Below, in pieces: positions 17,640-64,000 of a DNA stretch of 64,000 bases (the stretch's first letter is position 1; every line of letters starts with the position of its first letter). Source of the stretch: Magnolia sinica. Lineage: Eukaryota > Streptophyta > Magnoliopsida > Magnoliales > Magnoliaceae. The stretch covers positions 65,682,001-65,746,000 of the forward strand of contig NC_080588.1 in NCBI RefSeq assembly GCF_029962835.1, given 5' to 3'. The position numbers were made by a program, and so were the translations under genes. The notes beneath the pieces were generated by a model. The model made no database searches and had not been told where the DNA came from. It saw only the letters and a list, made by a program, of their open reading frames with translations.

Positions 17640-18090
17640 CGTGATGTGTTGAAGTGACAAAGTTTCTTGGGCTTTACTATGATGTATGTATTATATCCAC
17701 ACCGTCCATCCAGCTTGAGAAATCATTTCAGAGCATGAGCATAAAAATGAGGCAAATCTAAAGCTCAAGTGGACCACACCACAAAAAAGCATCGGAGATT
17801 GAACGCCTACCATTGAAAACTTCTTGGGAGCCACAAAAGTTTTAGATCAAGCTAATATTTGTATTTTCCCTTCATCCCAAGTCTGTGTAAACTTATGAAT
17901 AGGTTAGATGGAAAATAAAAATCATGGTGGACCCTAAGTGGGTGCAATTGTCCCCAGTGCTTTCTGTGGTCTGATCCGCTTTATTTTTTGACTCATGCCC
18001 TAAAATGATCTAGTAAAATGGATAGACAATGCATGTATAACACATACATCATAGTGAGGCATACGGAACTTTGCAACTTCAACACACGTC
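17640..18090. mobile_element. Foldback element
   Basis: The left half runs 'gatgtgttgaagtgacaaag', 'atccacaccgtccatcc', 'aagtggaccacaccac'. The right half is its reverse complement in outline, ending 'catacatcatagtgaggc' and 'ctttgcaacttcaacacac'. The centre has 'ttttagatcaagctaatatt' and 'cccttcatccc'. There is no coding potential. Confidence 0.75.
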
Positions 18091-19089
18091 TTTGTCAATT
18101 GTATGTGAACCCAAATGGCCAAAAGGGGTAGAAATACCCGATCCTAGTGAATGTCATCCGTTGTGAATTTGGTCCATTGAATATAATTCCATGGTCCACC
18201 AGACATGTTTTTGTTTAAACTAGTGTTTTCCCCTGGCAAAGGTTTTATCCCAAACATGGGATTAGATGGATACAATACCATGGTATTTCCATATGCGCAA
18301 TCATTGTACAATAATGATGTTAATCCCATCTTACACAATTCAATTCCACGGACCAAACATGCCCTATAGTAGGAGAAAAAAACAAGGCTGCGTTTCACAT
18401 ATGCCACACCAAAGGCAACAATGGAGAGAAACGTCAAATATTATTTATTACAGGGCTTTCTGCAAAGATTATAAGAAATCCACTCTAACTATTTGATTCT
18501 ATTATAAAAAATAAAAATAAAAAATTAGGCCTGGGCTCCAGAATCAGGACAATCTATGATTCAGGTAGTGACTTCCTTCCGCATTGGAATCACAAGGGGG
18601 GTTTTTGGGTATTCAAAAACTGAAAATATTCCCATGAATCTATACAATTAAGTAAATATTTTGGTAAACAAGAAAGTCAAAACATTTTATGGAAATATCA
18701 TATTTTTCTGGAAATTTTCAGATCAAAACCCCCAAAATTTTCTTTTTAAAGATTTTCTGCTGCTGAAAATGCATTCCTGCTAGTGATTAGTTCTCATTTT
18801 ACTTTCGTCTTTATGAAATTCCTACAGATATGGGGACCGGGGTAACAGCTCAGTGGGTGAGTCCCTGTGAAATGTATGCGTAAGGATGTTGAGCTCAGCT
18901 TGGAATGCAATCATGAACTTGAAAGTACCAAATATTCTTATGAGCATACCATCAAGAAGCTTCCTTGACCTATATCAAGAAAACAGCAGGAGCAGCCGCA
19001 ACATGAGCTAAATACGCAACAACAATCCTGACCATAGGGCCCATCTGGGTGTGTGTTGTTTAGCCACTTGGTCCATCAGTTTTTTCTTT

Positions 19090-19385
19090 TCATTTTAGGG
19101 CATGGCCCAAAATGAAGCAGATTTGAATCTCAAGTGGACCACACCACAGGAAACAATGGCCATTGAACATCAACCATTAAAAACTTCATATGGCCCAATA
19201 CAATGTTTATTTGTCATACAACCTGTTGATAAGGTCACACTGACCTGAATGAATACAAAACTTCTGTGGCCCATGAGAAGCTGACGGGAAACACAAATAT
19301 CAGCTTGATCTAAAACTTTTTGTGCCCACAAGAAGCTTTTAATGGTCAATGCCCACTTGAGATTTGGATTTGCTTCATTTTTTAA
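19090..19385. mobile_element. Partial foldback element
   Basis: Contains the left-arm core 'caagtggaccacaccacagg' and the right-arm 'ttttaatggtcaatgcccac' with the usual centre, but the outer arms are decayed. Confidence 0.6.
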
Positions 19386-20948
19386 TCCTCTATCAACACC
19401 AATTTGAATCCTTAGAACATTGACCCAAATGAAGTTATCTCTTCTTCTTCTTTTTATTGCCTAGCGACCGTTTCTTGTTGCTGCTGCTGCTGTTTGGTGC
19501 ATGGACCATCTAAAGTTAGACCCACGGTATCAAAGTTCTGAATCATTGAAGCATTGGCCCCACCTGTACAAACTAGAAATCCGAACATTACACTCCCCCT
19601 AGGCATTGTAATTGCATGATACCTCCTAGTCTCTCTTTTTTTTTTCTTTTTTTTCTTCTTTTTTTTTTCCTATTTTTTTTTGGGTTAGCTTGTTAGTACA
19701 CACCCATGTCAGTACACACTCCATGTTAGCCACCCCCACTAGGGATACCTCCTAGTCTCTGAGTAGGTTTTAAGTTGCAAAAATGTTAGTTGCTGCCGGC
19801 TCCGTGCTTGACCCATGTAGACCTACTGCAAGCATGTCTAGCTCAGATGCACACATGCCTGTTCATCAGGTGGCCAGTGGCCACACATTTCCATCTCTGA
19901 CAAAGTATACTGCCAATTCTTCCTTTCTTACTGTCCATTCATACTCATGTGGCCCACCAAATGAGTAAAATGGCCTGATTTTCAAGCCAGGCATGTTTGC
20001 TGCCCCTCACCTGGTGACATGGTCTTCTTGAGAGGAAAGCCCCTATGTTGCAATGCAATGTTGGGTACAACCACGAACACCATTGTGTCATTCATTGAAA
20101 CAAATTCATAACAGCTTTCTATCTACAAAACTTTTTTTAACACACACACACACCACAGTGGGATTCCCCGACAATGGGTACTCGAATCCATGACCTTGTG
20201 TTGAGACTCTTGTGAGTCTACTACAAAACTAGTTCATAATGAAGCTGGGATTGTAACCTAGACTGATAGGGTGCCGGGGTGAGTCTCATGCATCTATACA
20301 TGTCATGGGCACCTCAAATGAAGACCACCTAAATAGCACGACCCAGTGTAGATTGATCATATCCCCAAGATCAGACTGATTAGACAATCATGAAGTCTGA
20401 TTGGTGTGCATTGGGACAGTTCTCGTTTCCAACGTCCATCAGATGCCCACCAACGTGCCAGTTAGGATCACACTTCCAGCAAAGCTCTTGGGCTATAAAT
20501 CCATCTACAGTGGGGTCCACTATTTGGGTAAATGGGATTTGAGGCAGATCCTACGTGTAAAGCAGGAGGTGCGCTTGCACCATAGTTGTGGTAAAAGAAA
20601 CCAAGCAAACAGGACAATATCTCAATATGAAACTTTAAAATGCCAAGGCATTTTCTCCAGTAATATCCAGTAGCAGATTTGAAGAATGAATCACCAAAGA
20701 ACTAGTCAAGTAAACATTCATATAGACTTCGAGACAGTATCTTCAAGAACAGAACCCATTATTTTGTTGAAAGAGAGTAGCATTTGAATTGAACTGACAC
20801 ACAAGCCGTCACATACTATATGAGCTGCAATGGACGTTTATGCCTCATATTGAAAAGATGGTCAGAGTCGAAGACACTTGAGTTGACACATGACAGACTC
20901 CCCAAGAAGGCCACAATCAACATGAAGCAGAAGCATTCAGCTACATCC

Positions 20949-21761
20949 TCAAATTCCCTGGAGAATATCATAAAATTTCGAAGGCTGATTCCGGAACTTC
21001 CAGCAGAGTTCCTGAAAAACAAACCACTCCTTGCTGTCATTAGTTGTCTACAGGTAAAATAAAAAAAAATGGACAGACAGACACTTGTTCTTGTGTGAAA
21101 ATAACAATCACCTCCACTGCAGAAGCCACCCGCAAGATAGTGGCCTCGCCCCACGGACGGCCTATCAATTGCAAACCTATAGGGAGTCCTTGTTTATCAT
21201 GACCAACCTGAACATGGAAAATGTTAAACCACAAGAAAGATAAAAAGAAAGACAGGTGGTGAGTAATGGACAAATGATAGGTGATCGGATCTTCCAAGTC
21301 CTACACAATCTTGGTCACATTGCTTGAAGGTGCACCACCTACTCTTATTTAGATACTGAAGCTTTGCTAGTTAGATTTTTCCTTTCACAATTTTCTACAC
21401 TACCGTTCCAGCTCTCATAGTATAGTTGTACAATCCTCAGGCCTGATGAAGCGTTAAGGTGTCAGCGGTCCAGAATTGCTAAAAATTAGAGCCCATGGTT
21501 CCGATCCAGACTGTTGACATGTGGTCCATCAAAGTATTATTGCTTAACAGTCGATTTGCCTGGCAACAGATCAAAGGGGAGGATCCCATCAGGCAGATTT
21601 TGGGGCACAGTCCATCCACAGTACAATTAATCAGATCAACTGTCTGGTTGGGGTGAAGGGCCTTATAGTAAGGGCTGAACCTGACCTGCTACCTATTTGT
21701 TGTGGCCCCAACCAATCTTATAATTGGATTGGTCCATGACAAGTGCATCTTCCTTGCTGCG

Positions 21762-21846
<85 letters not shown>

Positions 21847-23369
21847 GGTCTCCTGTGCACCATACCGTAGATACCTTTGTGCGCACCAAGGCTGACTCAC
21901 TTAGATGGGTAGGGCTGGGTAGGATGAGGTGGGCCTCACCATGATAAGTTCATGAAATCTACTCCAATCATTTGGTTTGTAATATAAATTTAGCAGTAAG
22001 GGTAATAAAACAGGAATATTCGTGATTCAAGTGAGCCACACTACAAGAAACAATGGGAGAGCGAATGCCTATTGTTGAATCTTTACAGGGCATACCGTGA
22101 TATGTACATGAAATCCACTCCAACCATTAGCTGATTCGTGAAAATGGATGCAGAGGGGGAAAAAAATTAGGCCCATGGGTTTATGTGAGCCACATCAAGT
22201 GAAAAAGTTTGGATGGTGGGTGCCCCTGTGCACTGTTTCTACTCATATTACCCGCCTGGATCAAGGGTTTGGGTGACTTCACATACGCATCACAACACCC
22301 CCCACGATGTGGATTGCGTAACTAATGGGCATGGATTGCTAGTTGGTGGTCATGGCCCCAAAATAACGTATTTGTTTTATCCAAGCTGTCCATCTATTGT
22401 ATCATCTCATTTTACAGCATTAGCTAAAAACCGAGCCAGATCCAAATGTCAACTGGACCACACCACATGAAAACAGTGGTGATGGAACGCCCATCATTAA
22501 AAACTTCCTAGGTCGATTGTATTGATTAAGTCATACAAGCCTAGATGAAGGGAAAACACAAATATCAGCTTGATAGAAAACTTGTAAGGCCTCCAAGAAA
22601 ATTTTTAATGGTGGTCATTTAATCACCACATTTTCCTGTGGTGTGGTCCACTTGAGAATTGGATCTTTCTCGTGTTTGGGGTCATGCCCTAAAATGATAT
22701 GAAAAAAGGGATGGACGGTGGATAAAATATACATATATTATGGTGGGGCCCACATTATACTTCCAGCACCTACCAGCAGAAGTTACTGCTGGCAGGCCGT
22801 CTGGTCAACATGCAGAGATGGGTGGGAGAACTAAGGGAGGGGTGGGGGTGGCCCAATGTGATTTGTAAGTGAAATCCACTCCAAACATATGGCGTGTGAT
22901 GACAATTTGGTAATAGGGCTCAAACTTCATCCACATTTATAATTTATGGTGGGCCACGTTAGCTGAAACAGTGAAGGGGATGCGAGCCATCCAAACTGTT
23001 TCACTCAATGTGGACCACATGAATCACTTACGGGCATAAAATTTGGTTCACATGTATGGATCTTCACTGGGTGGATAGTGGTTGGAGTGGATTTCATATA
23101 AACATCATGGTAGGCCCAGTACAAATTCAATGGTGGTTATTCCCTACTCCACTGTTTCCTTTGTTTGGCACACCTAAATCATGAATCTGACTGATTGATG
23201 AGCCTCATGGCTAATTTTAGCCTGTCCGGCTATAATGGGCGGAGTGGATTCCATGATTACAATATGATGGAGCACACCCCAGCTCTACCCTCTAAGCAAG
23301 TCCCCCTTGGTGCGCGCGGACGTCTCTTGCGGTACGTGCGCAGGAGACCACTACTATATATCACACCAC

Positions 23370-23417: not shown

Positions 23418-23957
23418 GGGAAATGGTACTATGAGGTCGACCTCATGGGAGCTCTCCATGACGTCGAGCTGTGTGGGCCCCACAATGGTGTTTGTCGAAC
23501 ATCTACACCGTGAATTTGATGGGTCCCCTTTAAGTTATGTGATATCCCAAAAATCAGCCATACACGGAAATCAGGTGGGCCATACCATATAAAACCATGT
23601 GAAGACATTACTAAAATATATAAAAGCACTTGGTGCGGCCCACTTGAGTTTGGGATGTGGCTAAAACTTGGTCTGACCCCTCATCCAAATGGGACACACA
23701 CAATGGATGGGCTAGATTTGAAAACCACATCTCAGTGGGCCTAATAAATGATTATGAATGTTTTAATGGGAGGATAACCCCTCTCAATTGTTGTATGTGG
23801 TGTGGCCCACCCAAGTCATGGATTGACTTGATTTTTATGCCCGTGGCCCACCATGGAATGGTGCATCTGGCTGATCGGGTAAGATGTTCGACACACATCA
23901 CAGTGGGGCCCACATAGCTCGACCTCATGGGAAGGTCGACCTCATAGTACCATTTCC

Positions 23958-23993
<36 letters not shown>

Positions 23994-26900
23994 TTTAGTT
24001 TGGCATAATCATCTTCTGTTTGAAGCAATAAAAGGTGATATATTTTCTTAAAGGAGATACCCTTCTAAAATTCCTCTAATTCTACAGAAAACATCAAAGT
24101 TAAATAAGGCTATGAATTTTCAAAAGTACCAGAGTATTCCCTTAGGGGTGCGTTCCAGTGGTACCGGTAACACCTCAAGCTACCATGGGATTGGGCAGAA
24201 GTGCGGCTTATGTGATGTATTCATGACATCATACCCGTTCATCAGATGCATCACCTAACGTTACCCCCAGGGACCAAAAATAAGTCCAAATGGAAACTCA
24301 AGTGTGAACAGTGATGGGGATGGTTGAGAAAGGATTGCCACCCTCGATTTATTTGGAGGGTCGACCATGTTGTTTATATGGAATCTATGCTATCCGGACC
24401 CTTCATCTGCCCTGGATAAAGGGTTAGGACAACAACTCAGGCTGTTATGCAACTAAGGTTGGCCCCATTGAGAATCGAGGATGGGCGTCTCCTCCCACCT
24501 TGTTTTCTGTTCTGGCCCACCAGCATTTTGGATTGAACTGATTTCAGTCCCTGGGGGTATCCTAAGGGCACGCATAAGATAAAGGTTCATTCCAATTTGA
24601 AGTGTCTGAGTGACAGAACTTCATAGGGAAATTGCAAGGAGAAGACATGTTTTACTTACAGGGACAGAAATAGCTGGGAGTCCAAGAAGGTTTCCTGCTA
24701 TTATAAATCTCATGAGATAACCTGAAATTGAGATCCAACAAAAAGCAAAATAAGTGTTCGGAAAAGTTTGAATGAATTTCATCATTGAGATCTATTGGAG
24801 AGAGATTGTTCAAATAACATGAGGTGTTCCATAATTAAAAAAATATATATTAAATTAAAAGAAAAAAAAAAAAAAAAAAAAACTGAAACAAGACTCCAAG
24901 GTCCAAAGAAATGTCTGCTCGCATTCTCGGATCCAAGGCAACATAAGTTTTTAAGATTTTAATCTCATTTTTTGATAGGTAAGTTGAGTTCAAACCCAAG
25001 ACCTAAAGATTTTAGTCTCCCGTTGTTGCTTTTCCTCCACAGGCAATACTTCAAAGGAGAAGACCATCTGACGATGGGGAGAAGAGTACAAGTGAATCAA
25101 AGTTTCTAGCAGCAACATATTTCGGTCTCTGTTAATTCTCCTTTACTATGTTGCACTAATTTCTTCTTGTATAGAGAAACTATTTAATTTAATTTTATTT
25201 TATTTTTTTTTAAAAGAAGGGTTGGTGTCTGGCAGGCAGCTAATCATTGAACTTCCATCAAAAATCAAGAGAGGCCAAACTGAAATAGCTGGGACAAGGC
25301 CATGATGATAATTGATAACAAGGAAATTCTACCAAATTTGTCTTTAAAAAATCACTTCTAAATCTTAAATAGAGATCCTACCCGAGTGACAAGGGGTGCC
25401 TCGCACCTTCCTTTCTTGTGGCCGCTCCTATTTTTGGGTGCGTCTACTTGTGGATTTAATTTGGACCCCCTTTTTCTTTCTTCTTTTTTTTTTTTTCTTT
25501 CTTTTTTTTTCCAAAATTCAATTAGGCATGATAACCTTCAATAGAATTTGGTTGAACAGGATATCCTTCATTTACCTTTGTTCATCCAATGGAACAAGTC
25601 CAAAGCTCACAATCAAGGTGTTCCATAATGGTAACGGTGGCCGTAACAGCCACCACCGTTACCGTTACGATACCGGCCATTACATCCTTTTTATTTTTTT
25701 GGAAAAACCTGTTTCAAGACCATTACGGAGCCGTTATGGACAGTTTTTTCTTTAACGGCCGTTATGGCCCCGTAACGCGTAATGGTTATGGCAGTTACCG
25801 TTACATAATGGCCATTACGTAACCATTTTTATATACCATGGGATGATGTCATCAAAAGTATTTAGTCAATGAATATCCCAGAATAGCATGCCACCATTTT
25901 ATACACAGCACAAAATAGTGATCTAGATTCTAGAGACTTCTAGCATGGAAACAGAACTCCATAATTAAACAAATCTCTCATTCAACAAAAGTTTTCACAC
26001 AAGCACACTTGTAAAGCTAACTGGATCCAGGTAATATTATGTTAGTAGAAAGCAAAGACAGAGCATAGACATCATCTCATGCAAAGATTCTGGAATGAAG
26101 GTTAACCAATTCCTAGGTGATGGTAAAAGGATAAAACAACTGACCTGACACCTTCAAATTGGACTCCCCACACTTGAGAGAACTCGGAGGTATCAATGGG
26201 GCTGTGATGCTGTTGTACCCCAAAAAAAAAAAAAAGAAGAAGAAGCAGGTTATCCTACTATGTAAATATATACACACGTATCAATATAGAGCCTATCATG
26301 TTTAGAATTGTGTGGAATAAAAGTCAAAATGTTGCGTAGGAATGTATGACTAGACCATTGTAGAAACTTCATGGCTCCAATTTTTTCTCAGACAATCATG
26401 GCTTCTTCATTTCAAAGAACCCCAAACGTGGCAGTCATATAGTGAATAAAATGAGATTTTAAATTCGAAATGTCTTTCAAAAACATCAACTCAGTACAAA
26501 TCAAAGTTGTGGCTATGACTGTAATCTAACAGAGAAGTAGATCATACCCAGTTGTTGGGGTAACTATAACATCAACCTTTTTGAAAGCTTCCATATGATA
26601 ATACATTATCCTTCTCCTGTCATAACAAAACAAGATGACAAAAAATAAATGCAAATAGTACACCATCTATCATCATCACTCCTATGAAGATAAATTGTAA
26701 TGGTTTTCAAATTTTCATAAGACCAATTAATAACATAATTTCCGAAAGCAAATGAGCATAAGGAGAGGAAGAAATATTGGCTAAAATCTTCAAACTGAGT
26801 AACATCCATATGGTGTTTATAGCAGGCACACAAAACTTACGTGGCCACCCATAGAGACTCATTTAACTCACTATTTTTATTTTTATTTTAGAATATATAC

Positions 26901-32900: not shown

Positions 32901-35900
32901 CCGTTATTTCCAGAAGGGATGTAGCATGTGCAATGCACATGGAGAGAGAGGAAGGAAGAGGGGAATTCGGGATAAAGAAAATCAGCACTAGAGCTTGGGG
33001 AGAGACAGTCAGCAAGGAGCCAATCTTTTTCCATGTAAAATGTAAGCCGTTCATGGGCTTTTACGGGTGAAATCTAAGCTGCCCGACAGACACCAGCGAC
33101 ATTTTCAAGTTCTTAAAATACCTTTTAACTTTAATTTAGATGTCTTACCATGTCCTTAAAATAGTCAAGGTTCTCCGTCCAGGAAAACTATTTGCAGGGG
33201 CAAATATGTCCAAGGCCTGCCATCATATATGGTAAACATATACCCTCACAATACAACTTCTATTATTATTGTTGTTATTGTTGTTGCTGTTTCGAAAAAG
33301 GTTCTTACAATACATTTGTATAAAGTTTCAAATCAAGTAGCCAAAAAGCGGGCATGTTTAGCATGTAACATGATTACCTATGATTATTCAATAACATCTA
33401 AACCTACAATATGTTCCTTGCTTATCATATGAGCTGCAGATAAAGCATAACTGAGAGAAGCAGCTATTGTATCCAAGCAAACTCCTGACCAGATAGCTAC
33501 TATATGAAACAGATATCAGAATGCTACTGGTGGATCCACTTGGTTTTTTGGTTTTTACTGTTAGCATTTCATGTTACGTTTGGAAGTTTCCTGGTTCCCC
33601 AAGCTGCAAGTGAGATCATTCAGGACATTCTGCATATCTCACTCAGGATTAGGGTGCGGGAAAAAGAGGACAAATGAAAGGACGCTTAATACGGGTTCTA
33701 TTTTCCACTGCCCAAAAATAAAAGCCTAACTTGTTGGCTCAGATATCTTGCTAACTGCGATTTGGCAGTACATTTGAATGCACTCCTAAAAAGCAAAATG
33801 AAAAGCTTCCACATCATGGAAGATTGATGAGAAACAAGGCATGCACACTACCAAACATCATATCATAATGTGTAAAGTAATAACTGCATGAGCAGACAGG
33901 TGAATAATAATTCAACTAATGTAAAACAGATTACCCTTTCATGTCAGTCCGCCCATATGCAGTTTTCAAGCCCACGATACCACAAAGAGAAGACGGAATT
34001 CGAACAGAGCCTGCCTTTTACATAAAATATGCACTAAAATTAGGTCCATATCCTGACATAGGATACTTTCTGTATATATCGAACCGTCATTTTGTACAAC
34101 CTCCACCGTCTGTTCCAACAGCAGCTGGACATAGTCCAGAAGCTACAATTGCCGCAGGGCCTGAGGAAGATCCACCTGTATACCTTTCAATGGAGTGTGG
34201 GTTTCTCGTTGTTCTGTAACAAAACAGGTGTTAGAAAAACAATTCATTGACAAATGACATTGCCTACTGACAATTTCAATAGTAACAAGTTTCTGATGAA
34301 ACCGAAAAGTTATGCCTAAATGGCATATTCCTTACCCATAGTTTGGATTATTTCCAGTTGTCCCTAGTCCCAACTCATGCATGTTTGCCTTCCCTATGAA
34401 AATCACACCACAACTTCTCAATCTTGAAACACAAACTGCATCTTCTTTGACTTGTCGGACTTTATGAAACCATGTCGTCGCACCTGGCATCAGAGAGCAC
34501 TAAGCTGCAATATACGAATATGGAGGGTGATGTCTAGAAAACATCAGTCTTTTGCAAAATATTACCCTTGGTTGGATGAGGATAGCAGTCTATATCATCC
34601 TTGATGGCCATGAAAATCCCATCCAAGATTGACAAGGGATTCCCTGCAGGCAATGTCAATAGGTCTATAAGGACTAGCATAACTTAATGGTAATAAAACT
34701 GACACATAGTCAACATACCCATAACCATCATAAACATGGATATACATTTTATATATCAGCAATACCTTCCTCGAACCTTCTTGTAGAGGCTGCAGCTTGC
34801 TTCCTCACATCCTCGGCATTAAAAGAGATCAATAATGGCATGGGAGGCCTCTTACCATTGGACTCCTCTACTGCTGAGATGATGTGCTCCCCAACCTAGA
34901 CAATGAAAGTGGATCTCACTCTCTTTCTTTTTTAGTTTTTTGGTAGTTTAATTAATAAAGAGCAAGAACCCTAGCAATTTGAAATTCACAGTGACTTACA
35001 ATCGATGGTGTAACAGACTTGGATCGATAAGCATGTGCATAATCACGTATTGTCCAATACAAGAATGAACCAGGGGAGTTACTGCTCAAATGTCGCTCTG
35101 GATCATAAGGTGGTAGGCACTCTATGGCAGATTCAACACGGACGGCAGGTTTGGTGTCTTCCCCTATGACAATCACCCCAGGTTCCGGCTCTAGAATATA
35201 ACATGATTGTGAGATCAGAATCAACACAGTTCTTTGGGAATAAGGGAATGAGACTATTTTAGACTACCAGCTGCAATCACAAAGGGTTTCTTTTTCTTTT
35301 TCGAAAGATAGCAGTGTCTTATTAAAGTATGCTGAAAAAACTCACAACTTACACCAACAAGGCACAATGCAAATGAGAAAGATTTCAATCAACTAAGGAC
35401 TCAATATATGAAGCCCACCCCCAAAAACTCAGCCCTTCTAAACACTTCCGACACTGATCCACTCCAACTTCGAAAGCATCGGTTGTTCCTTTCCCCCATA
35501 AGGCCCACAAACCCACTAGGAGCACAAGCCTCCAAACCACCTTCCCTTTTCTCTCTACAACTCCCCCATACCAAGCTAGAAAAAAAATAAAAAAAAAATC
35601 TATGGATCCCGGCATTACCCACTCCATTCTAAAGGTTTCAAAGAACCTTTCCCATGCTTCTTTAGCAAAGGGGGCAATGAATGAAAAGGTGATCCACCGA
35701 TTCCACACTCCGAATACGCATAACACAGATGTTGGAGAAGACCATCCCTTTTCTGAAGGTTGTCGATTGTTTAATGCCCTATTCATTCCCCCCAACCAAG
35801 CAAAAGCCACAACCTTAGGGGGAACTCTGCCATGCCACATGAAGAATGTATGCCCACCATGCACTGCGGATGAGGACCCAAACATCATATTGTAGAACAA

Positions 35901-39344: not shown

Positions 39345-39366
39345 GCAACGGACCGCAACTGTTAAT

Positions 39367-43290: not shown

Positions 43291-43294
43291 GAGT

Positions 43295-43799
43295 GGATTA
43301 GGTGGGTCGCATCTTAGTGGGTGTTACCTTACCGTGGCGTCCACATTAATTTTTTTTGTATATCTACACCGTTCATCTGTTTTTACATCCAATTTTAAGA
43401 TGTATTACCAAAAATTATACAGATAAAAATATCAAGTAGACCACACCACAGGAAATAGTGGTGATTGAGTGCCTCACCATTAAAAATTACAAAGGTCCCA
43501 TTGTACGCTTTCATAATGTTTATTTTCCATCGAACCTGTTGATAATATCAAGAAGATTTAGATGAAGGGAAAATAAAAAATATCAGCTTAATCCAAAACT
43601 TTTGTGGCCCATAAAAAGTTTCTAATGGTCATTCATCACTATTTCTAGTGGTATGGTCCACCTGAGATGTTTAGGATCTTGTACTAAGATAAGATTTTAA
43701 AACAGATAGACGGCGTGGATATAAAATAAATACATCAAGGTGGGCCCATACGGTTAGTGTAAAAGCCCACCAAGCTGTTACCCGTGTAACAGCTAATCC
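43295..43799. mobile_element. Foldback element, GGATTAG-ended type
   Basis: Left end 'ggattaggtggg' with 'gtgggtgttacc'; right end 'ccaccaagctgttacc' and 'gctaatcc'. The inner arms 'atctacaccgttcatctg' and 'agatagacggcgtggata' are reverse complements in outline. A sister copy is at 63103-63607. Confidence 0.8.
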
Positions 43800-43969
43800 G
43801 TTAGGTTTAGGGAGTTGGTATTTGTAGCTTCCGATGATTTCTAAGTCAGTTGGCCGGGGGTGGATTCTTAATGGCGACTGGCTTGACAAGCTGGCGATAA
43901 TAAATTAAACAGCTACGTACTTTTAACTTAAATTAGACCGTGCTATGTGAATGTGGACGGTAGTACAGT

Positions 43970-44374
43970 GCATGCCCGAGCTGGCATGGGAGCGCCTCTG
44001 AGGGGCCACCATAATGTATGGATTTTATCCACACCGTCCATCCATTATGCCGTGTCATTTTAATATGTTATTCAAAAAATGAGACAGATCCAAGGATCAA
44101 GTGGACCACACCACATGAGGCATCAATCATAAGGTCACATCGATATGGAAGAAGGGGTTTCAGAACTTCCATGCCAGTCAAGAAGTTTTCAACTGTAGGT
44201 ATTCAATCTACACATGGTGGTCTATTTGAGATTGGATTTGCCTCATTTTTGGGATTATAAGTTATATGGTATTAGAAAAATGAATGGACAGTGCGGATAA
44301 AACTCATACTATACGATGGCCAAAGACTCTAGTTTGTTTGGAGCTCTAGAGGTGGGGTAGTACCCAATCCACCG
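43970..44374. mobile_element. Foldback element
   Basis: The left 'gggccaccataatgtatgga', 'tccacaccgtccatcc' is mirrored by 'ggacagtgcggataaaactc' and 'actatacgatggcc'. It directly abuts the next element. Confidence 0.7.
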
Positions 44375-44909
44375 AAACGGATTGGCTACTCCCCCCGCCA
44401 CCGGCCAATGGCTGATGGTCGGTGCTCTATGCGCCCCAACATGATGTATTTGTTTTATCTATGCTGACGATTTATTTTTCTAGATGATTTTATAATATGA
44501 TACCAAAAATGATATATATCCCAATCTCAATTGGACCACATTATAGGAAATAGTGTTGAATGAGTGTCGACCATTAAAAACTTTTTGGAGACCATTAAAG
44601 CTTCGGATCAAGCTGATATTTGTTTTTTCCCTTCATATAAGCCTGTATGACCTAATCAACAGATTAGATGTCAAATAAACAATACAGTGTGCTTTAGGAG
44701 AATTTTAATTGTAGATATCCAATCACTATTGTTTTCCTGTAGTGTGGTCCAACTGAGACTTATATCCCTTTAATTTCATGAATCAAACCATAAAATGATC
44801 TTTAAAAATGGATGAACGGCATGGATGAAACACATACATCATGGTGGGGCCCACAGAGAACCGACTACTAACCGCGGGGCTGGTGGCAGGGGGAGTAGCC
44901 AATCCGTTT
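44375..44909. mobile_element. Foldback element with perfect 21-bp ends
   Basis: The 21 bases at 44375-44395 (AAACGGATTGGCTACTCCCC and one more C) are the exact reverse complement of 44889-44909. Total length is 535 bp. The arms contain 'ggaccacattataggaaata' and 'tttcctgtagtgtggtcc'. This is the best-preserved member in the window. Confidence 0.9.
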
Positions 44910-50345: not shown

Positions 50346-50818
50346 GCCCGTGCAACATAGAGCACCGTGGGGTCACTGTGGTTTTTGTACGATAAATCTG
50401 TACTGTCCATCATTTTTTCCAGCTCGTGTTAGAGAGTGAACCCAAAAATCAGGCAGATCCAGTATTTAAGTGGGCCACACTACAGGATAAAGTGGGATGT
50501 AGACGTATTCCATCAAAATCTTCTTGTGGCTCGTAGAAGTTTTGGATCCAGTTGAAATTGGGTACCTTACACTTCATCCTGGTGTGACCCACCTTATGAA
50601 TGGGTTGGATGACATTTAAACATCACGGTGGGTCCCAGGAAGGTTGCACTGGTGGGTATCTCCATTCCTGCTTTTCCCTGTAGTGTGCCCCACTCTAAGT
50701 TTTTAAACGGCATTATTTTCAGTATGGTATACAAACATGAGATTCCTACTATGATGGACGGAGTGGATTTTTTAAAAAAAGTCATGGTGGACCCCACAGA
50801 GATTTTCGTTGCACGGGC
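50346..50818. mobile_element. Foldback element, GCCCGTGCAAC ends
   Basis: GCCCGTGCAAC at 50346-50356 is the exact reverse complement of 50808-50818. The inner arms are 'gggccacactacaggataaa' and 'ttccctgtagtgtgccccac'. Length 473 bp. Confidence 0.85.
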
Positions 50819-51839
50819 ATTCTACCCCAACTTCTGTTGGAAACTGGCGTCCCCGTGAAAATCACATGCCTTCCTACTCCTGCGGGGGTGTTTGCCCGTG
50901 CCATCAGAAAGGATTAGGTGGGATGCGATTCAAAAAAATATAATTATTATAAATGACAAGGATTGTCAGCTATTTCCATGGAGCAAGCCTAATTCCATAT
51001 TATATTTGTACCATGGTGGTATTGGCTCTTTAGTTTGTCCATTAAATAAATATACCCACCATCATTTGAAATTATTGAGAATAATATATATGTGTTATAT
51101 CCATGTCATTTATCTTATTTGCAACCTAATTTTAAGGCATGAGCCTAAAATTGAAATAAATTCAAAACTTACGTGACCACGACACAGAAATTAGTGGGAA
51201 CAATAATGCCCACTGTTGAAATCTTCCTAGAGTCTACCGTGATGTTTATTTGCTTTCTAATCTATTCGCAAGATTCAAAAGACTTGGATGTAGGGAAAAT
51301 ACAAAAGTTAGCTTCACTCAAAACTTATGTGTCCCCAAAGTCGATGGATTCTGCACAATCTCATATATAGCATTACGTGGAAATTAGTAGAATAGCCAAA
51401 CAATGATCGTTTTGGTCTACTTATCATCCATGCAGCCGTGATCTTTTCATGTGGAAAGTAATGATTACCAAAATGCAGTATCGCCCTGCCGTCGGCAATC
51501 ATTACAATGGGCCCACCTTTAATGTATGTATTATATGACATATGTGTTTTCATCATTTGGGACATGAGCCCAAAGTATCCAAATCTCAGGTGGACCATGC
51601 TACGGGATATAGTGGTGATTGAATGCCCTACCATTAAAAACTTTCTTAGGACCATCTAATATTTATTTGCCATCTAACCTGTTGATAAAGTCAAAGATGA
51701 AGAAGGAAAATAAAACAAAATCTCAGCCACCCCACTACTGTAGGACTCACCTTGATGTTGAATATATATGGCCAGCACAAGCCGAGTTCAAGTTTGGGTT
51801 CGAGCTACCATCGACAATGGCTAAGACAGCATATATATA
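50819..51839. other. Gene-free block with half-foldback sequence
   Basis: Two decayed left-arm-type stretches lie near 51170-51300 and 51510-51680 ('atctcaggtggaccatgcta', 'taccattaaaaactttctta') without good right arms. No gene. Confidence 0.5.
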
Positions 51840-52357
51840 GTAGTATGAGGTCAACCTCATGGGAAGTACACGGCAACTTTCCATGAGGTCAGGAGGTGTG
51901 TTGATTATCAACATGGTGCGTTGGATGGGTGCCCTTTAGGTTATAGGAGACCTCAAAAATCAGCGGTATACAGGACTTAGATGGGCCATGTCATTTAAAA
52001 TCATGTGAAGATATGCTTAAAACATATAAAAGTATTTGGACAGCTCACCTGAGTTTTGGATGTAGTCAAAACTTGGTTTGACCCCTCATCCAAGTGGTAT
52101 ATACACAATGGATGGTCTTAATTTGTGAACCACATCTCAATGGGCCCAATAAATGATTATGAATGTTTTAATGAGAGGATAACCTCTTTCAACTATTGTA
52201 TGTGGTGTGGCCCACCCAAGTCTTGGATCGACTTGATTTTTAAGCCCGTGGCCCACCATGGAATGGTGCATTTGACTAATGGGGTAGATGTTTGACATAC
52301 ATTATGGTGGGACCTCATGGGAAGTTCTTATGTAGTCAACCTCATAGAACCATTTCC
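51840..52357. mobile_element. MITE of the GGAAATGGT family, copy 2
   Basis: Shares with the 23.4-kb copy the terminal 'agtatgaggtcaacctcatg', the internal 'accccctcatccaa'-like and 'aaatgattatgaatgtttta' stretches, 'gtggtgtggcccacccaagt', and the right end 'ctcatagaaccatttcc'. The outer left nine bases are lost. It too lies in TA-repeat DNA. Confidence 0.8.
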
Positions 52358-52962
52358 ATATATATATATATAACCGAACTAAGTCTAATTCGAGTTAAAC
52401 GAGATTGCTTGATTTATGTCCAGCTTTAATTAGGGCACTGATATTATGCTCTTAGTTGCATCAGGTTACTGGGACAATCCAAAAGATCAATCTAAACCTT
52501 CTATCAAGTCCATGACACATTTTAATGGCTAAATCCATCTTAAATACAGCCTTATTTTATGTAGCTGTGATTTTTCCAACCCATGAATCAGATAGTGAGA
52601 TTGCCTAACCAAAGTGACTCTTTAAACTCACAACCAATTCATGATTGGAACTATCATTGTTTATTGGAGCTGTTTTTGTTTAAATATTCTTGATGGTCCA
52701 TATCAAAGGCCATCGATTTAAATGGTTTTAATCATCAGAACGACGTGGTATTTATGTGGTAGACCAAATGTGTGCTGAACTAATGATAGTTCATGAGCAT
52801 CTTTCAATTGTAATTTTATATATCAATTGTAATCTTATATACAGGGAAAAGATACTGCGAGGTCCATGGTGATAGCTTTTAATGGGATGCAGTTTGGCTA
52901 GTGACCCCAACACCAACCAACTGGCTGGTGTCAAAGTTCTATGCCCTCACCACGAATGATTA

Positions 52963-53525
52963 GAGTTGTACATGAGCCGAGTTTGCTCAGTCAGCGAGCT
53001 GGATTCGACTCAAAAAAGCTCGACTTGTCTCGGCTTGAAATTGGATTCAGACTAAGTCGAGCTAATTTTTGGAGCTTGAAAAAATTTCAAGCCGAGTTCG
53101 AGCTTGCCCGAGCTCAACTTGACTCAGATCGAACCTCAACTCGAACCGGCTTGAATTGAATCAGCTTGATGACTCAATTATTTTGATATAGATGCTACTT
53201 ACTAAGTGTTTAATGAAATAACTCAATGAAGTGTTGGCGAGGAAGGAATGTATGGGTGTTTGATTTTAATGTTGTTGTCCAAGTGTTTAATGAAATACCT
53301 GTAAAAATGTTGTTAGTATTTTGCATTATTTGAGAAATTAAATATGCATTTTACGTGTTTGAGAAAATGCCGCACAGGTCCTAACTCGGCTTGAGCTGGC
53401 CTGAGTTGCTGACCGAACCGAGCCAAGCTGGCCAAACAGGCTCAAAGACCAAGCTGAGCCAAGTTCGAGACTAGCTACTAGCTGAGTTGTGCCAAGCTCG
53501 ACTCGGTTTGACTCGTGTACAACTC
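52963..53525. mobile_element. 'Gagccgag' inverted-repeat element, copy 2
   Basis: The ends GAGTTGTAC (52963-52971) and GTACAACTC (53517-53525) are exact inverted repeats. The interior mirrors copy 1 ('gactcaaaaaagctcgactt', 'ctaagtgtttaatgaaataa', 'gccaagctcgactcgg'). It is 563 bp without coding potential. Confidence 0.75.
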
Positions 53526-54800
53526 CAACCATGATACATGTGCTTTATACATGACATCCATCCATTTTTCTAAATCATTTTAAAGCATGAGCTAAAAAAG
53601 GAGCCCACCTGTAGTCCGAATCTCAAGCCTAAAAAATTAGTTGGGCTTGGACCCATTGGCCCAACCCAGCCATACCGAATTTCTATCAAATCATATGAAT
53701 TTTCCTAATCCATCTGCTTATCAAGTGAGCCATGTAATTATCTGGCCATACATGTAGACCTATGACATGGTCGAGTCTATCGGAGTCGCTGAGTCATTTA
53801 ACCATGATCAAGCCATGTGTGTCAGGCCCAAGCCCAGCCCACGGACCAATCTGTTCATTCCAAGCCCAGATCACCGTCCATTGCCGCCCCTACGACTAAT
53901 CTGATAAAGGGCATATTAAAAAGGGGGTTTGAAGATATAATTTTCCAAAAGTAAAGGTTCATACAGCTAATCTGCCTACCTATACACCACCATAGATCTA
54001 TAAATGATTAGGTACTCGCATCAGTACCATAAGATTAGTGTACTTCACCATTTTTAGCTCACATTTCCTATTTGTAGGACATCCGAACCGTGGAAACAAA
54101 TGGGGCCTTTTTGGAAATCACGAGAAGTGAAAATATTTCTCAGAAATTTATAACTTGGGCCACAGATATATGCTTGATCTAGATGTCTGTAAAGAATTAT
54201 TTTAGTACAGTGGCCCACCTGATAATCGCATCCGCTTGAATTTTTTGGTAGGTGATCATCATGGTGAGGATGGAATTTGTATGGAGAGGATTTAATATAT
54301 GCATGACATGACTGCTGGAATAAAGGCGCAGTACGGAAGGCTATGGTACTGAGAAGAAGTATCAGATCATTTCTCCCACCACTTTCAACTTGTGTGTCAT
54401 GCCGCCGAAAGCTGTTGGAAAGAAGCGAACACGGACAAGGCCGAATACTGCTTTCTCTTGCTGCCCTGCTGGGTCCACACGTGCGCGTTCACTTTCCTTG
54501 TACTTACCAATTTGGCACACGTGGAAAAGATCCAGTCTGTTCATCAAGTGAATACGACAGTTCAGGTGCATTGTCCGTTAAATAGGGCCGATGTAACTGT
54601 CAGGTGGGGCACACATGTACAGATTCTGACTGAATGGTTTAGATTCTTACCCATGTGTGGTCCACCTTACTGATATTTGCCTGATTTTAAATCCAGGGAT
54701 TTTACGTAGGGACGGTCACGTGAATCTGTCTCTTACGCACGTGTGATGCGAGTGCATTTTCCAAGTGCTCACGGTCGAGTGCGATTAGCATCCGCGTAGA
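53526..54800. other. Gene-free spacer
   Basis: Begins with a partial left arm ('tccatttttctaaatcattt') and a 'ttgggcttggacccattggc' stretch, and ends in 'ggtggggcacacatgtac' and 'ggtccaccttactgatattt' repeat DNA (54600-54700). The open frames at 54343-54673 overlap each other on both strands and match nothing I recognise. Confidence 0.4.
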
Positions 54801-55290
54801 TTCGGGACGCGGATTGCTTAGGAAGCGATTTGGATGGTAACCCCATCCCCAAGCGAGTGAGCTGGTGTCAAAGCTCCTGGTGCCTCATCATGATATACGT
54901 TTTTTTTCTTCCCCGTTCGTCCACTTTTGCAACTAATTTTATCGTATATGGAAATCGCATGTGGACCACACTACAAGAAACACTGGGGATTGAACTCTTG
55001 AAACTTCTTCCAGACAGTAGAAGTTTTGAATTAAATTGATATGTGTTTATGTAACCTAATGACCAAGTTGAATGGCAAACAAACATTACGGGGAACCAGG
55101 ACATTTTTAACAACAAGAGTTTAATCACCATTGTTTCCTATGGTGTGGTCCCCCTGAGACTTAGATCTATCCCATCTCTGGCATCATGCCTGAAATTTGT
55201 TAAGAAATAAATGGACGGCTAGGATGAAACACATACATCAAATGAATGAACGGCTAGGATGAAACACATACATCATGTGGGGCCTATAAA
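54800..55290. mobile_element. Foldback element with internal 35-bp duplication
   Basis: The left end 'gggacgcggattgc' and arm 'gtggaccacactacaagaaa' are mirrored by 'tttcctatggtgtggtcccc' and the right arm. The right arm unit 'acggctaggatgaaacacat' occurs twice in tandem (about 55214 and 55250). Confidence 0.7.
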
Positions 55291-57076
55291 CACCAACTAC
55301 TAGAAATGTCGTCACTTGCAGTGTCAGTATCCGATGAGGCATGGTTTTTATTTTCCTTTGTTTGCTTGTTAGTACACCCAAGTATCAGTTCACACATTAT
55401 TGTTAGTCACCCCCGCTAGGAAATCTATACCAAGACCTCAGTACTCAAATAAGGTATCTTTCACCAAAGTTTATCACTTGAGCTATGGATCAGGGTGTAT
55501 ATCAGCTGAATTCAAAAACACCTCTCATCACTACTGTTTCCTACAATGTAGTTCACTTGAGATTTAGATCTGCCTCATCTTTAGATCATGATATAAAATG
55601 AGATGGAAAAATCAGCATAAAAGCTTGATTCAAAATACGTCCAATCATGGCCCACTTGCGATCTGTATTGACTCATTTTTGGAATCATGCTGGAAAAACG
55701 AATTTACTGCGTGGTTAAAATAGAATACATCTTGGTCCCACAGAGCTTTTATAGCACGGTCCAGTGGGAGGTGCTGCTGTCGGTATGAGTATATGCCATC
55801 CGTGTGGCCATACAGCCAGTCTGGAATGCTTGAGACACCAGTGTCTGTGAACGAGTGGCCCATGAGTAAGTGATCTATACCGTTGATTTAACAGTCACGC
55901 AAGGTATTACTAATGTGGTAAAAACATATTTCAGATAGTTACATCCTAGCCATCAGCTGGTGGACAACAATTATTGGATGGACAAGATTTTCGAATATAG
56001 AAAAATCTAAGCATATCTCTGGATCTCTAGTTAGGCCCAATAGATAAACGGTCTGGATCACCTACACGTGGATAAACATATCGAAAATCATGATCTGACA
56101 ATTTATCCCCACCTCTTAATTGAAAGGCCCACTCTCTTAATTAAAAGGCCCACCTTCACATGCATTTAATGCTGCATTTAATACTGCATTTACTAGAAGA
56201 CTATGGAAGTAGACCAACAATCATACGGTGGCTTACCATCGTTTTAAAATGGTGGTGACTGTTCAAACACATATGCCTAATTGTACTACCATCTGAACCG
56301 TCCAAGTATCTGGTCCAAATTTTGGATAAGCAGAACCTAAAATTTATATTGAGAATATGATAATAACCTTTAAATTTTGGACAATTCAATAATATACTTT
56401 TAATCATCCAATTGATAGCCATCAATCGTACGGTTATAATTGCTTGTTCAGACTGATTTTTAGACATAAGCTCCATCCTCAATGTACCCCACAATTTGGA
56501 CGGCCTGTAAAGTTGTACATGAGGGCCACATGTCAGGAAGATGAGTCACCACCGTTTTGCAAATGGTTGGAGCGCATAAGAGCATAACACAATGAAGTTA
56601 GTCTCCGTATACATGCACTACCATTTAGGAAACTGATTGATGGGACGATCTATCATCTTACTCATCGGGACTTTTTTTTGGTTGAATTTAGACCGTTGAG
56701 TTTTCTAGATCCATCCGTTGTCCTCTCCACGTGTAACTTGTGAGCCAAGAACGGCACGTGTGGGACATCTGAATCCAGCTGTGTTAATGTGGGTCCATCT
56801 TCAAGATGACCACACGCAAGACTTATAAAAGTGTTTTAGTTTGATTTTCGGTTCACAGACCATCTACAGAGGGACACACTATTTCAACAGTTTAGATTGA
56901 ACATACGTGGGGAATATGTAGGGAATATATGTAACGTGCGTATGGATATGATCGTAGAGTAGCGAGTATCATAGTTTTTTGTTCTGATATGGCATTTTCG
57001 TAGTTATCGTCCAGTCAAGGCATTAAATATGAAGCTAACCACCCCACTGGCCACTTCACACCCGCGCGATCATGAC
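55291..57076. other. Gene-free spacer
   Basis: Includes a repeat 'gcttgttagtacacccaagt' and 'gttagtcacccccgctagga' (55360-55430) shared with 19690-19745, one decayed right arm (55550-55760), and 'catttaatgctgcatttaat' repeats (56160-56190). No exon recognised. Confidence 0.4.
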
Positions 57077-57468
57077 GGAAGCGGATTGCGTCCGACCTCC
57101 AGTCGAACCAATAAGCGTTCGACCATTATGTGTAGGGCCTACCTTTATATATATATGTTTATCTACACCGTCCATACCTTTTATAAGATCATTTTAAGAT
57201 ATAGTACTATAAATGAATCAGATCCAATTCTCTAGTGGACCACAGTAAATAGTAATCTTGGGTTGCGTTAAATGCACAAAGCATTGAATGAAAGAGTCAT
57301 CTATGATATGGTCCACTAGAGCCTTGGATCTACCTCATTTTTTGGTCTATACTTTGAAATGATCTATGAAAAGCGATGGACGGGGTGGATGAACAGATAC
57401 ATCACGGTGCCACCACGAAGATCCTGTAGGATGCTTGAAGGCCATAGCGGAGGTCGGACGCAATCCCC
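57077..57468. mobile_element. Foldback element, short type, perfect 18-bp ends
   Basis: GGATTGCGTCCGACCTCC near the left end and its exact reverse complement near the right (57449-57466) define a 392-bp element. The centre carries 'gcgttaaatgcacaaagcat', as in the 39.4-kb element. Confidence 0.85.
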
Positions 57469-58064
57469 TGCCGATCATGACATACGATCCGGGCCATGCA
57501 TTTTCCGCTGCCCTCTCATCCATTACAAGGCCGAGAAATCCGAAGGCTACTCTCGGAAGTAGGATTATCTCCACCGTTCATCAGGCGAACCATTTAGATC
57601 AAGTGTCATCTCGAAAAAATCCAGGTCTGCTTATCTCATAAGTGGGCCACACCTTCATGTTAGATTTTGGCCACTTGTTGATTTTTTCATACACGCGTAG
57701 CACATTTGAACCAATTGCCTGGCGGATTTGTAGACCATGCATCGCGCGTGATGAATGCCCTGTATGATTGTATCTCATACAAGGTGGACAACATAATAGA
57801 TTCATCGCAAAACAGTACACGCGGCAAGCTGATGAAGCAATCGGAGCCGTCCATCTCATGATACCCATCATGATTCAACGGCCCGTATTCCTAAAATACG
57901 AAACATCATACCATCCTACCCGTCACTTTTCTTCACTCCCTACGCTGCGATGTGTAGAGATATCCAACGCATGTGTATTTAGAACCATTTGTCAATTGCC
58001 ATCAACATCTGTTGTAGGAAGCGCATTCAAGGTGCAACACCTGAGCTGTATGGACCCAGCTTCG

Positions 58065-58510
58065 GTAGATCCCTGACCGTTGAGTCCACCGTGATGTACA
58101 TGTCTTATATCTACGCCGCCCATCTGTTTCTCCAGTTCATTTTAGGGCATGAGCCTAAAAAATTGCAGCAGATCCAAATCCCAAGTGGACCACAGCATAG
58201 GAAACAGTTGTAATTGAACGCTTACCACTAAAAACTTCCTAGGGCCAACCGCAATGTTTATTTTTCATCCAACCTTTTGATAAGGTCAGACAGACTGGAT
58301 GAAGGTAAAACACAGATATAAAAAAAATTTGTGGCTCTCAGGAAGGTTTTAATGGTCAATCAACACTCTTTCCTGTGGTGTGGTCCACCTGAGAATTGGA
58401 TCTTCTGAATTTTTGGTCTCACTCCTAAAATGAAATGGATAAACGGATGGACGGCATGGATATACGAAAAACACATGAAGGTGGGCCCCACATCAGGAAT
58501 CCACCGAAGT
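58065..58510. mobile_element. Foldback element
   Basis: The left 'gagtccaccgtgatgtacat', 'ctacgccgcccatctg', 'agtggaccacagcatagg' is mirrored by 'tcctgtggtgtggtccacct', 'ggacggcatggata' and 'aggtgggccccacatcagg'. Confidence 0.8.
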
Positions 58511-58981
58511 CGCGTCAGGGCAGTTTAGGGATCACAGCCGTCTGTAACATCTACTACGTCCATCAGTTGCGCCACCTACTTTTCATTATATATAATTAAA
58601 AGAAAAAAAAGCTCGATCCAAAACAAAGGCGGGACCGTACGGCACAAACAATATAAAATCACAGCAAAATTTTCTAAATCCGCTCAGTATGACCCACCTG
58701 AGTTTTGGATCATGATAATTTTTCTGTTGTACCTTCATCCTTCTTGGATGCACCTGATGAACGGATTGGATGTCAATTAGATAACATCGTCGCCCGAGGA
58801 AGGTCTCCATCGTGGGGCGTCCCATCCCCACCGTCCATATCATTTGGACCAATGGATTTTTTTGAATATTCCCTATTTTTCTGGCTCAGATCGTATGCCG
58901 ATGTTTAATAACTGATGGACGGAGTGGATGTCATATAAACGTCACTATGGCCTAGCCTGACAAAAAGCTAAGTACTGCTTG
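58511..58981. other. Gene-free spacer
   Basis: Contains 'gacccacctgagttttggat' and 'ctgatggacggagtggat' words of the other inverted-repeat type. No gene. Confidence 0.4.
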
Positions 58982-60305: not shown

Positions 60306-60322
60306 CACAATCCCACATACTC

Positions 60323-60324
<2 letters not shown>

Positions 60325-60358: not shown

Positions 60359-60360
<2 letters not shown>

Positions 60361-60363
60361 GAA

Positions 60364-60967: not shown

Positions 60968-61028
<61 letters not shown>

Positions 61029-62789: not shown

Positions 62790-63102
62790 CTGATGAAAAT
62801 ATGTAATACTATAGAATTTTTGTACTCTTTTTTTTTCCTTATTTGGAAATGATGTTTGAAGGTATTGTACGATTGTATAAGTGCCTTTATAATAAGGTTT
62901 GCACTTAAAAAGTATTGGGTCTTTGTTTTTTTGTTTTTTTTCCATCTAATTCTAATGTTAAAGATCTAGTTAATGTTGGACAGACTCCATTTTGGGATAT
63001 TGTTTGATCAGGGAATCAACCATCTTTCCCATCTGAAGAGGGCCCACAATTTGAACGGTCTAGATTAGCATGCCATGTGTAAAATGAATAATAGTAAGTG
63101 GA
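62790..63102 (+). other. CYSTM 3' UTR and flank
   Basis: An AT-rich 3' flank with T-runs (62828-62836, 62925-62941). A poly(A) signal cannot be fixed. It passes into repeat DNA near 63000. Confidence 0.5.
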
Positions 63103-63607
63103 AGCAGATTAGCTGTACCCGGTTACCCTAACCGGATGGAGGCCACCTTGATGTATTTTTCGTGTATCCACGCCGTCCATCTGTTTTTGCATCTAAATTT
63201 AGGACAAGATCCCAAAAATTAATAAGATAAAAAACTTATGTGGACCACACCATTAGAAACAGTGACAAAAGACTATTAAAAACATTTTGTGGGCCCCAAG
63301 TTTTGGATCAAGTTGATATTTGTATTTTCCCTTAATTCAGTCTTCTTGACATTATTAAGACTAATAAACGTTACAAAAGCCTTACGATCGGCGTTTTGAA
63401 AATTTTAATGATGATGCACTCAAACACCATTTTTTCCTGTGGTGTATTCCACCTGAGATGTGTATCTGCTTAACTGTTCGGACCCACGTTTTAAAATGGG
63501 TTGTAGAAACGGATGGACGGTGTGGATATATAAAAAACCATCAAGGTGGGCTCCACAGAAAGGGTAACACCCACTAAGCTGTTACCCGCGGTAACACCTA
63601 ATCCGCT
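63103..63607. mobile_element. Foldback element, GGATTAG-ended type, second copy
   Basis: The left 'gcagattagctgtacccggt' is mirrored by the right 'gcggtaacacctaatccgct'. The inner arms 'tatccacgccgtccatctg' and 'ggatggacggtgtggatata' flank a centre with 'ttttggatcaagttgatatt'. It is the same subtype as 43295-43799. Confidence 0.8.
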
Positions 63608-63619
63608 CTTACAGTAAGC

Positions 63620-64000
63620 GGAAGCGGATTACGGCCTGGCCTGGCCTGCCTGGACGATAATCCATCCAGGCAGGCTCTGAGGGGCCCACCTTGACGTATG
63701 GGTTTTATCCACGCCATCTACTTTTTTTTCCAAATCATTTTAGGATATGAAGCAAAAAATGAGTCAGATCCAAGGCTCAAGTGGACCACGTGGTGGAGAT
63801 TGAACGCATACCGTTAAAAACTTCCAGGGGCCACAGAAGTTTTGTATCAAACTGATATTTGTATTTTTCCTTCATCCAGATCTATATGACCTTGTTAAGT
63901 GACCTTATGAACGGATTTGATGGAAAATAAACATCACTGTGGCCCCTAGAAAGGTTTCAACAGTGGGTGGCATTATCACCACTGAGATAATGCATTATTA
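63620..64000. mobile_element. Foldback element, cut by window end
   Basis: The left end 'ggaagcggattacggcc', then a local 'gcctgcctggacgataatcc' and 'ggatt'-type hairpin, 'tttatccacgccatctac', 'aagtggaccacgtgg', the centre, and the start of the right arm ('aaaggtttcaacagtgggtg'). The right terminus is off-window. Confidence 0.75.

Follow-up and report, generated by a model that had tools for sequence, protein, structure and literature searches.

Abundant palindromic foldback elements, very probably Mutator-type, with several mirrored end types in the genome of Magnolia sinica

The stretch analysed here, in the following called the window, comprises 64,000 nucleotides of the Magnolia sinica genome (bases 65,682,001-65,746,000 of contig 16, NC_080588.1; genome 1.84 Gb, 127 contigs) and contains a dense family of short palindromic foldback elements. 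A first-pass annotation, made from the letters alone, had pointed to 13 copies. From 12 of these, leaving out the copy at 63620, we built an nhmmer profile, which at E<=1e-4 detected 32 loci covering 11,630 bp, or 18% of the window, with no match in 20 dinucleotide shuffles of the window or in the reversed window. The 13 copies are real, as all their coordinates lie within 23 bp of an nhmmer locus and the copy at 63620 was recovered as an independent match. Each of the 32 loci matched on both strands, as expected of palindromes. A second profile, built from 41 near-full copies, yielded 35 loci with 12,197 bp. Likewise, the 17-mer GTGGACCACACCACAGG occurs 20 times in the window at up to three mismatches, compared to 0.10 occurrences expected.

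The elements are unevenly distributed: 23 of the 32 loci lie between 38 and 60 kb, where they cover 36% of the sequence, and with the first profile not a single base of the family was found in 1-17.6 kb or in 24.6-38 kb. The proposal that the family makes up much of a gene-free 38-60 kb is corrected by this figure as to coverage; the freedom from genes is supported but not proven: 20 reading frames of at least 85 amino acids overlap this part, and none of the ten tested had a Pfam match.

Inside its flanking 9-bp duplication, an element starts with a tip like GGAA(A/G)CGGATT. Next come the type-specific zone, ~42 bp long, and the common arm of ~157 bp, which begins with TGTGGGGCCCACCATGATG about 55 bp from the tip; an asymmetric centre of ~113 bp is then followed by the mirror image. 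The centre word given before, TTGGATCAAGCTGATATT, has no exact occurrence in the window and nine at up to three mismatches. The consensus is a near-perfect palindrome flanking this centre. Arms were oriented by the centre alone; 12 of the 54 arm pairs had no usable centre and were excluded, so that 42 entered the comparison. Of 157 positions, 148 are identical between the consensuses of the left and right arms, and seven of the nine differences fall at positions 129-157, beside the centre. The right half as reverse complement of the left is therefore correct for the consensus, but present copies are only 70-92% complementary. This range comes from 15 inverted pairs in the window, nine of which each lie inside one copy; the pairs I6, I7, I10, I13, I14 and I15, with 616-1416 bp between their arms, connect separate copies or halves. 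Single arms deviate by 23.8-25.8% from the arm consensuses, so the present copies are imperfect palindromes, and by this divergence they appear to be old. Copies of type A (see below) differ by 8.2% from their own type consensus.

Folded as RNA, 17 of 17 copies were more stable than their shuffles (z -2.9 to -23.7), with a longest perfect helix per copy of 12-30 bp. A group of short B-type copies (L040, L042, L043, L044 and window positions 39368-39752; 375-413 bp) has no clear asymmetric centre: no centre match was obtained for 39368-39752, and that of the short B-type copy at 57077-57472 reached just 14 bits. The group consists mostly of tighter palindromes, with arms of 76-84% complementarity in the four L copies and 84-92% in parts of 39368-39752, and would provide the best candidate sources of small RNA.

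Our assignment of the elements to non-autonomous, palindromic miniature inverted-repeat transposable elements (MITEs) of the foldback type within the Mutator superfamily (Mutator-like elements, MULEs) is made with high confidence. A 9-bp duplication immediately flanking such tips is characteristic of Mutator-like elements. Among 39 tip-matched elements, in which young copies are over-represented (22 lie in loci fetched by exact tips, six in loci fetched by the 17-mer, seven in the preset genome sample described below and four in the window), the 9-bp flanks of 26 match at seven or more positions in a fixed register (12 at nine, eight at eight, six at seven), a level reached by 0.2% of shifted flanks (null mean 2.3). 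For the 11 elements from the window and the preset sample, fetched neither by motif nor by tip, the corresponding number is seven. When duplications were sought at 8/9 or better with the ends left loose, the background was too high (null median score 20), and the tips were then used as anchors; the 7/9 flanks of two window copies (38823-39346 and 63100-63610) were seen only in this way, and 39368-39752, with flanks of 8/9, stands outside the 39 as its left tip is damaged. Of the tips noted in the first pass, the GGATT types show 9-bp duplications in several copies and GCCCGTGCAAC (copy at 50346) shows none in register. Because the copies are bounded by duplications of their own, they are complete elements, and the possibility that they are fragments of a longer autonomous element was rejected. 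With a length of 375-539 bp (26 elements with duplications), no Pfam match in the ten frames tested and 7.5% of the sample, they are short, non-coding and numerous as expected of MITEs, and consensus mirroring together with the fold energies displays the long palindromic arms and the one-hairpin capacity of foldback MULEs. In the 26 elements, identity is 0.915 for the duplications and 0.775 for the arms, which is only a hint that the arms were already imperfect at insertion, as these elements were selected for good duplications.

Genome-wide, GTGGACCACACCACAGG was counted 46,878 times at up to one mismatch, compared to eight times for the reversed pattern. The genome sample comprised 200 kb, taken as twenty 10-kb stretches from positions fixed beforehand on contigs 1-18. 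Here the first profile detected 47 loci with 15,083 bp, corresponding to 7.5% (4.4-10.9% by bootstrap over stretches) and distributed over 14 of the 20 stretches, and no locus in the reversed sample; the second profile gave 8.2% (4.9-11.9%). Scaled to the genome, this amounts to about 430,000 loci (257,000-625,000). Exact A-type tips are rare in the middle of contig 1 among the 100 matches listed (to 134 Mb), with 7 in 40-100 Mb, 38 below and 55 above. As expected, viral and prokaryote contigs contained no exact 25-mer of the family. In a survey of 207 plants, MITE content reached up to 6.04%, in rice (PMC12550479; this and the other papers are cited by the accessible parts of their text). A share of 7.5% would equal or exceed this total for rice, bearing in mind that the methods differ. 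For Kmeria septentrionalis (Magnoliaceae, 19 pseudochromosomes), the accessible text gives 0.54% for all annotated DNA transposons (PMC11246460); if this species carries the elements, its annotation has overlooked them.

The zone behind the tip sorts the elements into the types A, B, D and H, in addition to C, E, F, G and I, which were seen once or a few times. Tips of the four main types occur 11,009 (A), 5,453 (B), 1,240 (D) and 1,777 times (H) in the genome, with reversed-pattern controls of 0 for all four; A and B fell together when the tip zones were clustered at 0.68 identity. The mirroring of the ends was examined in 28 elements with duplications of at least 6/9, one overlapping copy having been removed. 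At tip positions 1-12, identity to the own partner is 0.887 and to permuted partners 0.809 (none of 5000 permutations as high), but the elements had been selected for tip similarity over 22 bp, and the zone 13-54 and the arms provide the better test. In the zone 13-54, the own partner reaches 0.796 and permuted partners 0.640 (again 0 of 5000), compared to 0.579 between different types and 0.566 for shuffled letters. Within type B, own partners are also closer than permuted ones (0.792 vs 0.708), probably due to subtypes inside B. The claim of shared inner arms with differing terminal subtypes is supported and can be stated more precisely: the body is common, whereas each type has its own ~42-bp zone, which the two ends of a copy carry in mirrored form and which bears no relation to that of other types. 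H-type ends carry different tips (GGGAAATGGTACTATGAGG), and the H copy at 23.4 kb still matches the family (Table 1). On contig 1, six of 11 exact H-type tips have TATATATATATA within 20 bp outside; (TA)n also lies beside at least one side of both window H copies and beside the one H end in the genome sample. The listed flanks of A and B elements contained no TA array, and a microsatellite context was seen only for H and perhaps I.

The comparison of types A (14 copies) and B (8 copies) shows how far this mirroring reaches inwards. Compared in 20-bp bins, their consensuses have a mirror identity of 0.90-1.00 in the outermost 120 bp and of 0.55-0.90 in the 80 bp that follow, and in 19 single copies the mean falls from 0.90 at the tip to 0.53. 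At positions 1-40 of the common arm, A and B show six differences, four mirrored in both arms and two in one arm; at positions 41-80, none is mirrored, four are one-arm and nine mixed; at positions 81-150, four are mirrored, 26 one-arm and 14 mixed. It follows that the outer ~100 bp have changed in concert, with drift in the inner arms. In 42 copies from all types taken together, the distance between the own left and right arms is 0.351, compared to 0.381 for permuted arms (0 of 5000 permutations as low).

Both copying from arm to arm and selection for matched ends fit this pattern; for the replacement of whole zones we prefer copying, without proof. We tentatively propose, with less than even confidence, that one body has changed its ends repeatedly. 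A cassette of ~100 bp, made up of the tip-proximal zone and the outer arm and in about half of the types containing its own small nested palindrome, would have been replaced in both arms by foldback arm-to-arm copying. The body would thereby have been handed between MULE transposases with different targets, namely unique DNA for A and B and TA microsatellites for H, and could have reached several percent of the 1.84-Gb genome. Nested palindromes in the tip zone were significant against shuffles (p<0.02) at one end or more in seven of 13 representatives and at both ends in four, so that a nested palindrome in every tip zone was rejected; strong ones (score of at least 8) were found at 24% of 58 ends from 29 elements, compared to 1.3% in shuffles and 2.4% in core-arm windows. 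If ends really exchange in pairs, how a MITE can outlive its first transposase becomes a testable question.

Mirrored ends could also arise without any copying between arms. Here both ends would drift and selection during transposition would keep those elements whose ends match, double changes restoring the symmetry. We regard this as possible, though on the whole not as the expected outcome. This idea has been put forward for mariner-like elements, as cited in the accessible text of PMC2955051, and the mirrored stretch coincides with the expected binding region of MULE transposases, with MURA binding a motif of ~32 bp in the terminal inverted repeat (PMC3310237). However, between types, whole zones of ~42 bp are hardly more alike than shuffled letters, and yet they are mirrored within copies; stepwise double substitution would be slow to achieve this. 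Another explanation, which we consider unlikely, is that each end type was founded separately when one arm of an older copy gave rise to a new palindrome that was then amplified. Every type is indeed mirrored, and the absence of the asymmetric centre from the short B copies would fit a re-formation. But A and B retain the same asymmetric centre and, in the inner arms, differences between left and right, which limits any re-copying to the outer ~100 bp at most.

An improbable explanation is that the elements persist because they serve as hairpin precursors of regulatory small RNA. The folding of all 17 copies speaks in its favour, as does a C-to-T change at cytosine-guanine (CpG) sites of 11.7%, compared to 5.5-5.9% at other C, in 14 type A copies. 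Such a decay is what past methylation would leave and fits it, although the cause of the methylation is not thereby shown. On the other hand, the arms decay to the extent given above, no helix exceeds 30 perfect pairs, and the window contains no Rfam match at gathering scores. Finally, MITEs of another superfamily can hardly be considered, since palindromic MITEs are known in several of them but hAT elements make duplications of 8 bp and PIF/Harbinger and CACTA elements of 3 bp, whereas the in-register duplications here measure 9 bp, lie directly outside GGAA-like tips and are perfect in 12 cases.

For Mutator-type MITEs with exchangeable ends, the following mobilisation can be envisaged. A MULE transposase made elsewhere in the genome would act in trans, recognise the outer ~100 bp, which are mirrored between the two ends, and move the element by cut-and-paste into a 9-bp target. 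New end types would appear through a change at one end that the other end acquires by copying or by selection, and changed ends might allow a different transposase to use the same body. Transcripts able to form the hairpin would be a by-product that could feed small interfering RNAs (siRNAs). Production of small RNA from the predicted hairpins is plausible, and MITE-derived siRNA has been reviewed (PMC12595863). A source of transposase is likewise plausible since MULE domains are abundant: 150 of 1,104 candidate transposase domains were scored, and those listed were all above the cut-off, many of them in frames of more than 700 codons. Eight of the domains, on five contigs and in frames of 493-780 codons, have an equal score of 115.7 bits, which suggests a recently spread MULE lineage.

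Several observations weigh against this picture. No autonomous element with the ends of the family was found, and the two stretches examined (L049 and L050) contained no transposase gene that could be joined to such ends. The 4.3-kb pair of B tips on contig 2 (L049) was rejected as autonomous candidate because it represents two separate MITEs. One MULE of the repeated lineage (L050; 5.1 kb, 780-codon frame) was rejected as partner because its ends do not match; it also showed no family match and no clear terminal repeats. As to the duplications, retrieval by exact tips, which supplied 22 of the 39 elements, favours younger copies, two of the 39 overlap (L042:1408 and L042:1497, with the right end in common), and 13 have no duplication of 7/9 or better, among them the best-scoring window copy at 44373-44911 (3/9). 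As to the concerted change, the distance between left arms of separate copies (0.359) barely exceeds that between the two arms of a single copy, and in type A an end resembles its own partner no more than a permuted one (0.829 vs 0.839). The latter is expected if the A copies descend from one mirrored source.

In the classes of maize Mutator (Mu), the ends are common and the insides differ; in the family described here, the inside is common and the zone behind the tip differs. Mu elements are also MULEs, with duplications of 9-11 bp and long terminal inverted repeats bearing transposase sites (PMC3310237). By description, as sequences were not compared, the closest place for the family seems to be with the foldback MULEs FARE and MuTAnT, as a highly abundant variant with apparently exchangeable ends. 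FARE and the foldback MULEs of Arabidopsis, as named in PMC4486113, have long palindromic repeats at both ends as well and are classed as MULEs. The MuTAnT elements of Medicago truncatula, according to the accessible text of the same paper, are likewise hairpin-forming foldback MULE MITEs with long mirrored ends and 9-nt duplications, comprising 218 copies, 90% of them at 200-300 bp, and a putative autonomous element. In contrast, our estimate is several hundred thousand copies of ~400-540 bp, with several end types. The (TA)n context of MuTAnT (PMC4486113) may have a counterpart here in type H only. The same holds for the Micron-like TA-microsatellite MITEs, a name also found in that text: H-type ends often abut (TA)n, and the flanks listed for A and B are without it. 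Among the papers listed by the literature search, most subscription literature lying outside it, we found no description of this family, no body common to several mirrored end types, no paper on the exchange of MITE ends around a common body or on Mutator-type MITEs in Liriodendron, and no occurrence as text of three 16-17-base family motifs. As far as this search reaches, the kind of element is known, and the scale and the combination of one body with several mirrored end types are new.

Table 1. Family members and related matches in the window; numbers in brackets are first-pass positions, and strand is left empty where no orientation was assigned.
Feature	Position	Strand	Evidence
Foldback element (17640)	17617-18089	+	343 bits + / 241 bits -; left tip GGAAGCGGATTACG, right tip unrecognisable
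Partial element	19030-19383	+	171 bits
I-type element ends (GGTGGTCTCCTGYGCAC), (GA)n left, TA-rich right	21844-23352		matches 21927-22239, 22839-23305; inverted arms 22047-22152 / 23053-23158
Foldback element (22345)	22342-22776	-	345 bits; orientation by centre; fold z -11.6
H-type, mirrored tips GGGAAATGGTACTATGAGGTCGACC, (TA)n left, (GT)n right	23418-23958		129 bits over model 48-488, E 1.6e-39
Decayed relative	24211-24544		29 bits
Foldback element, B-type tips	38823-39346	-	367 bits; orientation by centre; flanks GAAGGACCG/AACGGACCG 7/9
Short B2-type, without asymmetric centre	39368-39752		arm parts 84-92% complementary; flanks 8/9; fold z -23.7
Decayed element	39796-40204		49 bits
Fragment	40299-40379		21 bits
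Partial element	41996-42227		61 bits
D-type, GGATTAG tips, GTTACCCGGGTAAC-like zone at one end	43290-43801	-	341 bits; orientation by centre; tip match
Foldback element (43970)	43965-44373		258 bits
A-type, tips (C/G)GAAACGGATTGGCTACTCCCCC	44373-44911	+	424 bits; no duplication in register (3/9)
Partial element	45041-45322		88 bits
Foldback element, diverged tip zone	45479-45894	+	145 bits; orientation by centre; fold z -8.9
Foldback element	46064-46484		117 bits; inverted pair I3 79%
Partial element	46833-47107		74 bits
Foldback element, GCCCGTGCAAC ends	50351-50813	+	322 bits; no duplication in register
Partial element	51086-51344		97 bits
Partial element	51506-51728		90 bits
H-type between TA arrays (short left, longer right)	51840-52359		78 bits at 51949-52319; tip, flanks
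Fragment	53528-53603		31 bits
Foldback element (54800)	54821-55336	+	299 bits
Fragment	55471-55612		53 bits
Fragment	55648-55753		31 bits
Short B-type, perfect 9-bp duplication GATCATGAC	57077-57472		237 bits; 9/9; tips 12/14
Foldback element (58065)	58062-58493	-	379 bits; orientation by centre
Decayed element	58513-58959		76 bits
D-type	63100-63610	+	360 bits; flanks ATAGTAAGT/ACAGTAAGC 7/9
Element truncated by window end (63620)	63621-64000	+	202 bits

The element at 22342-22776 seems either to interrupt the I-type element at 21844-23352 or to be enclosed by it. Outside the family, frames at 878-2037 are probably exons of a beta-xylosidase-like gene; they contain the C-terminal domain of glycosyl hydrolase 3 and an Fn3-like match below threshold. 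In a MITE-free stretch, a minus-strand frame at 35388-35948 with a sub-threshold zf-RVT match is perhaps the remnant of a long interspersed nuclear element (LINE). Judged by eye only, a second repeat seems to recur between the MITEs, at 17500-17610, at 52960-53530 and near 58985, with words like GAGCCGAG/AAGCTCGA close to 'gtgtacac'.

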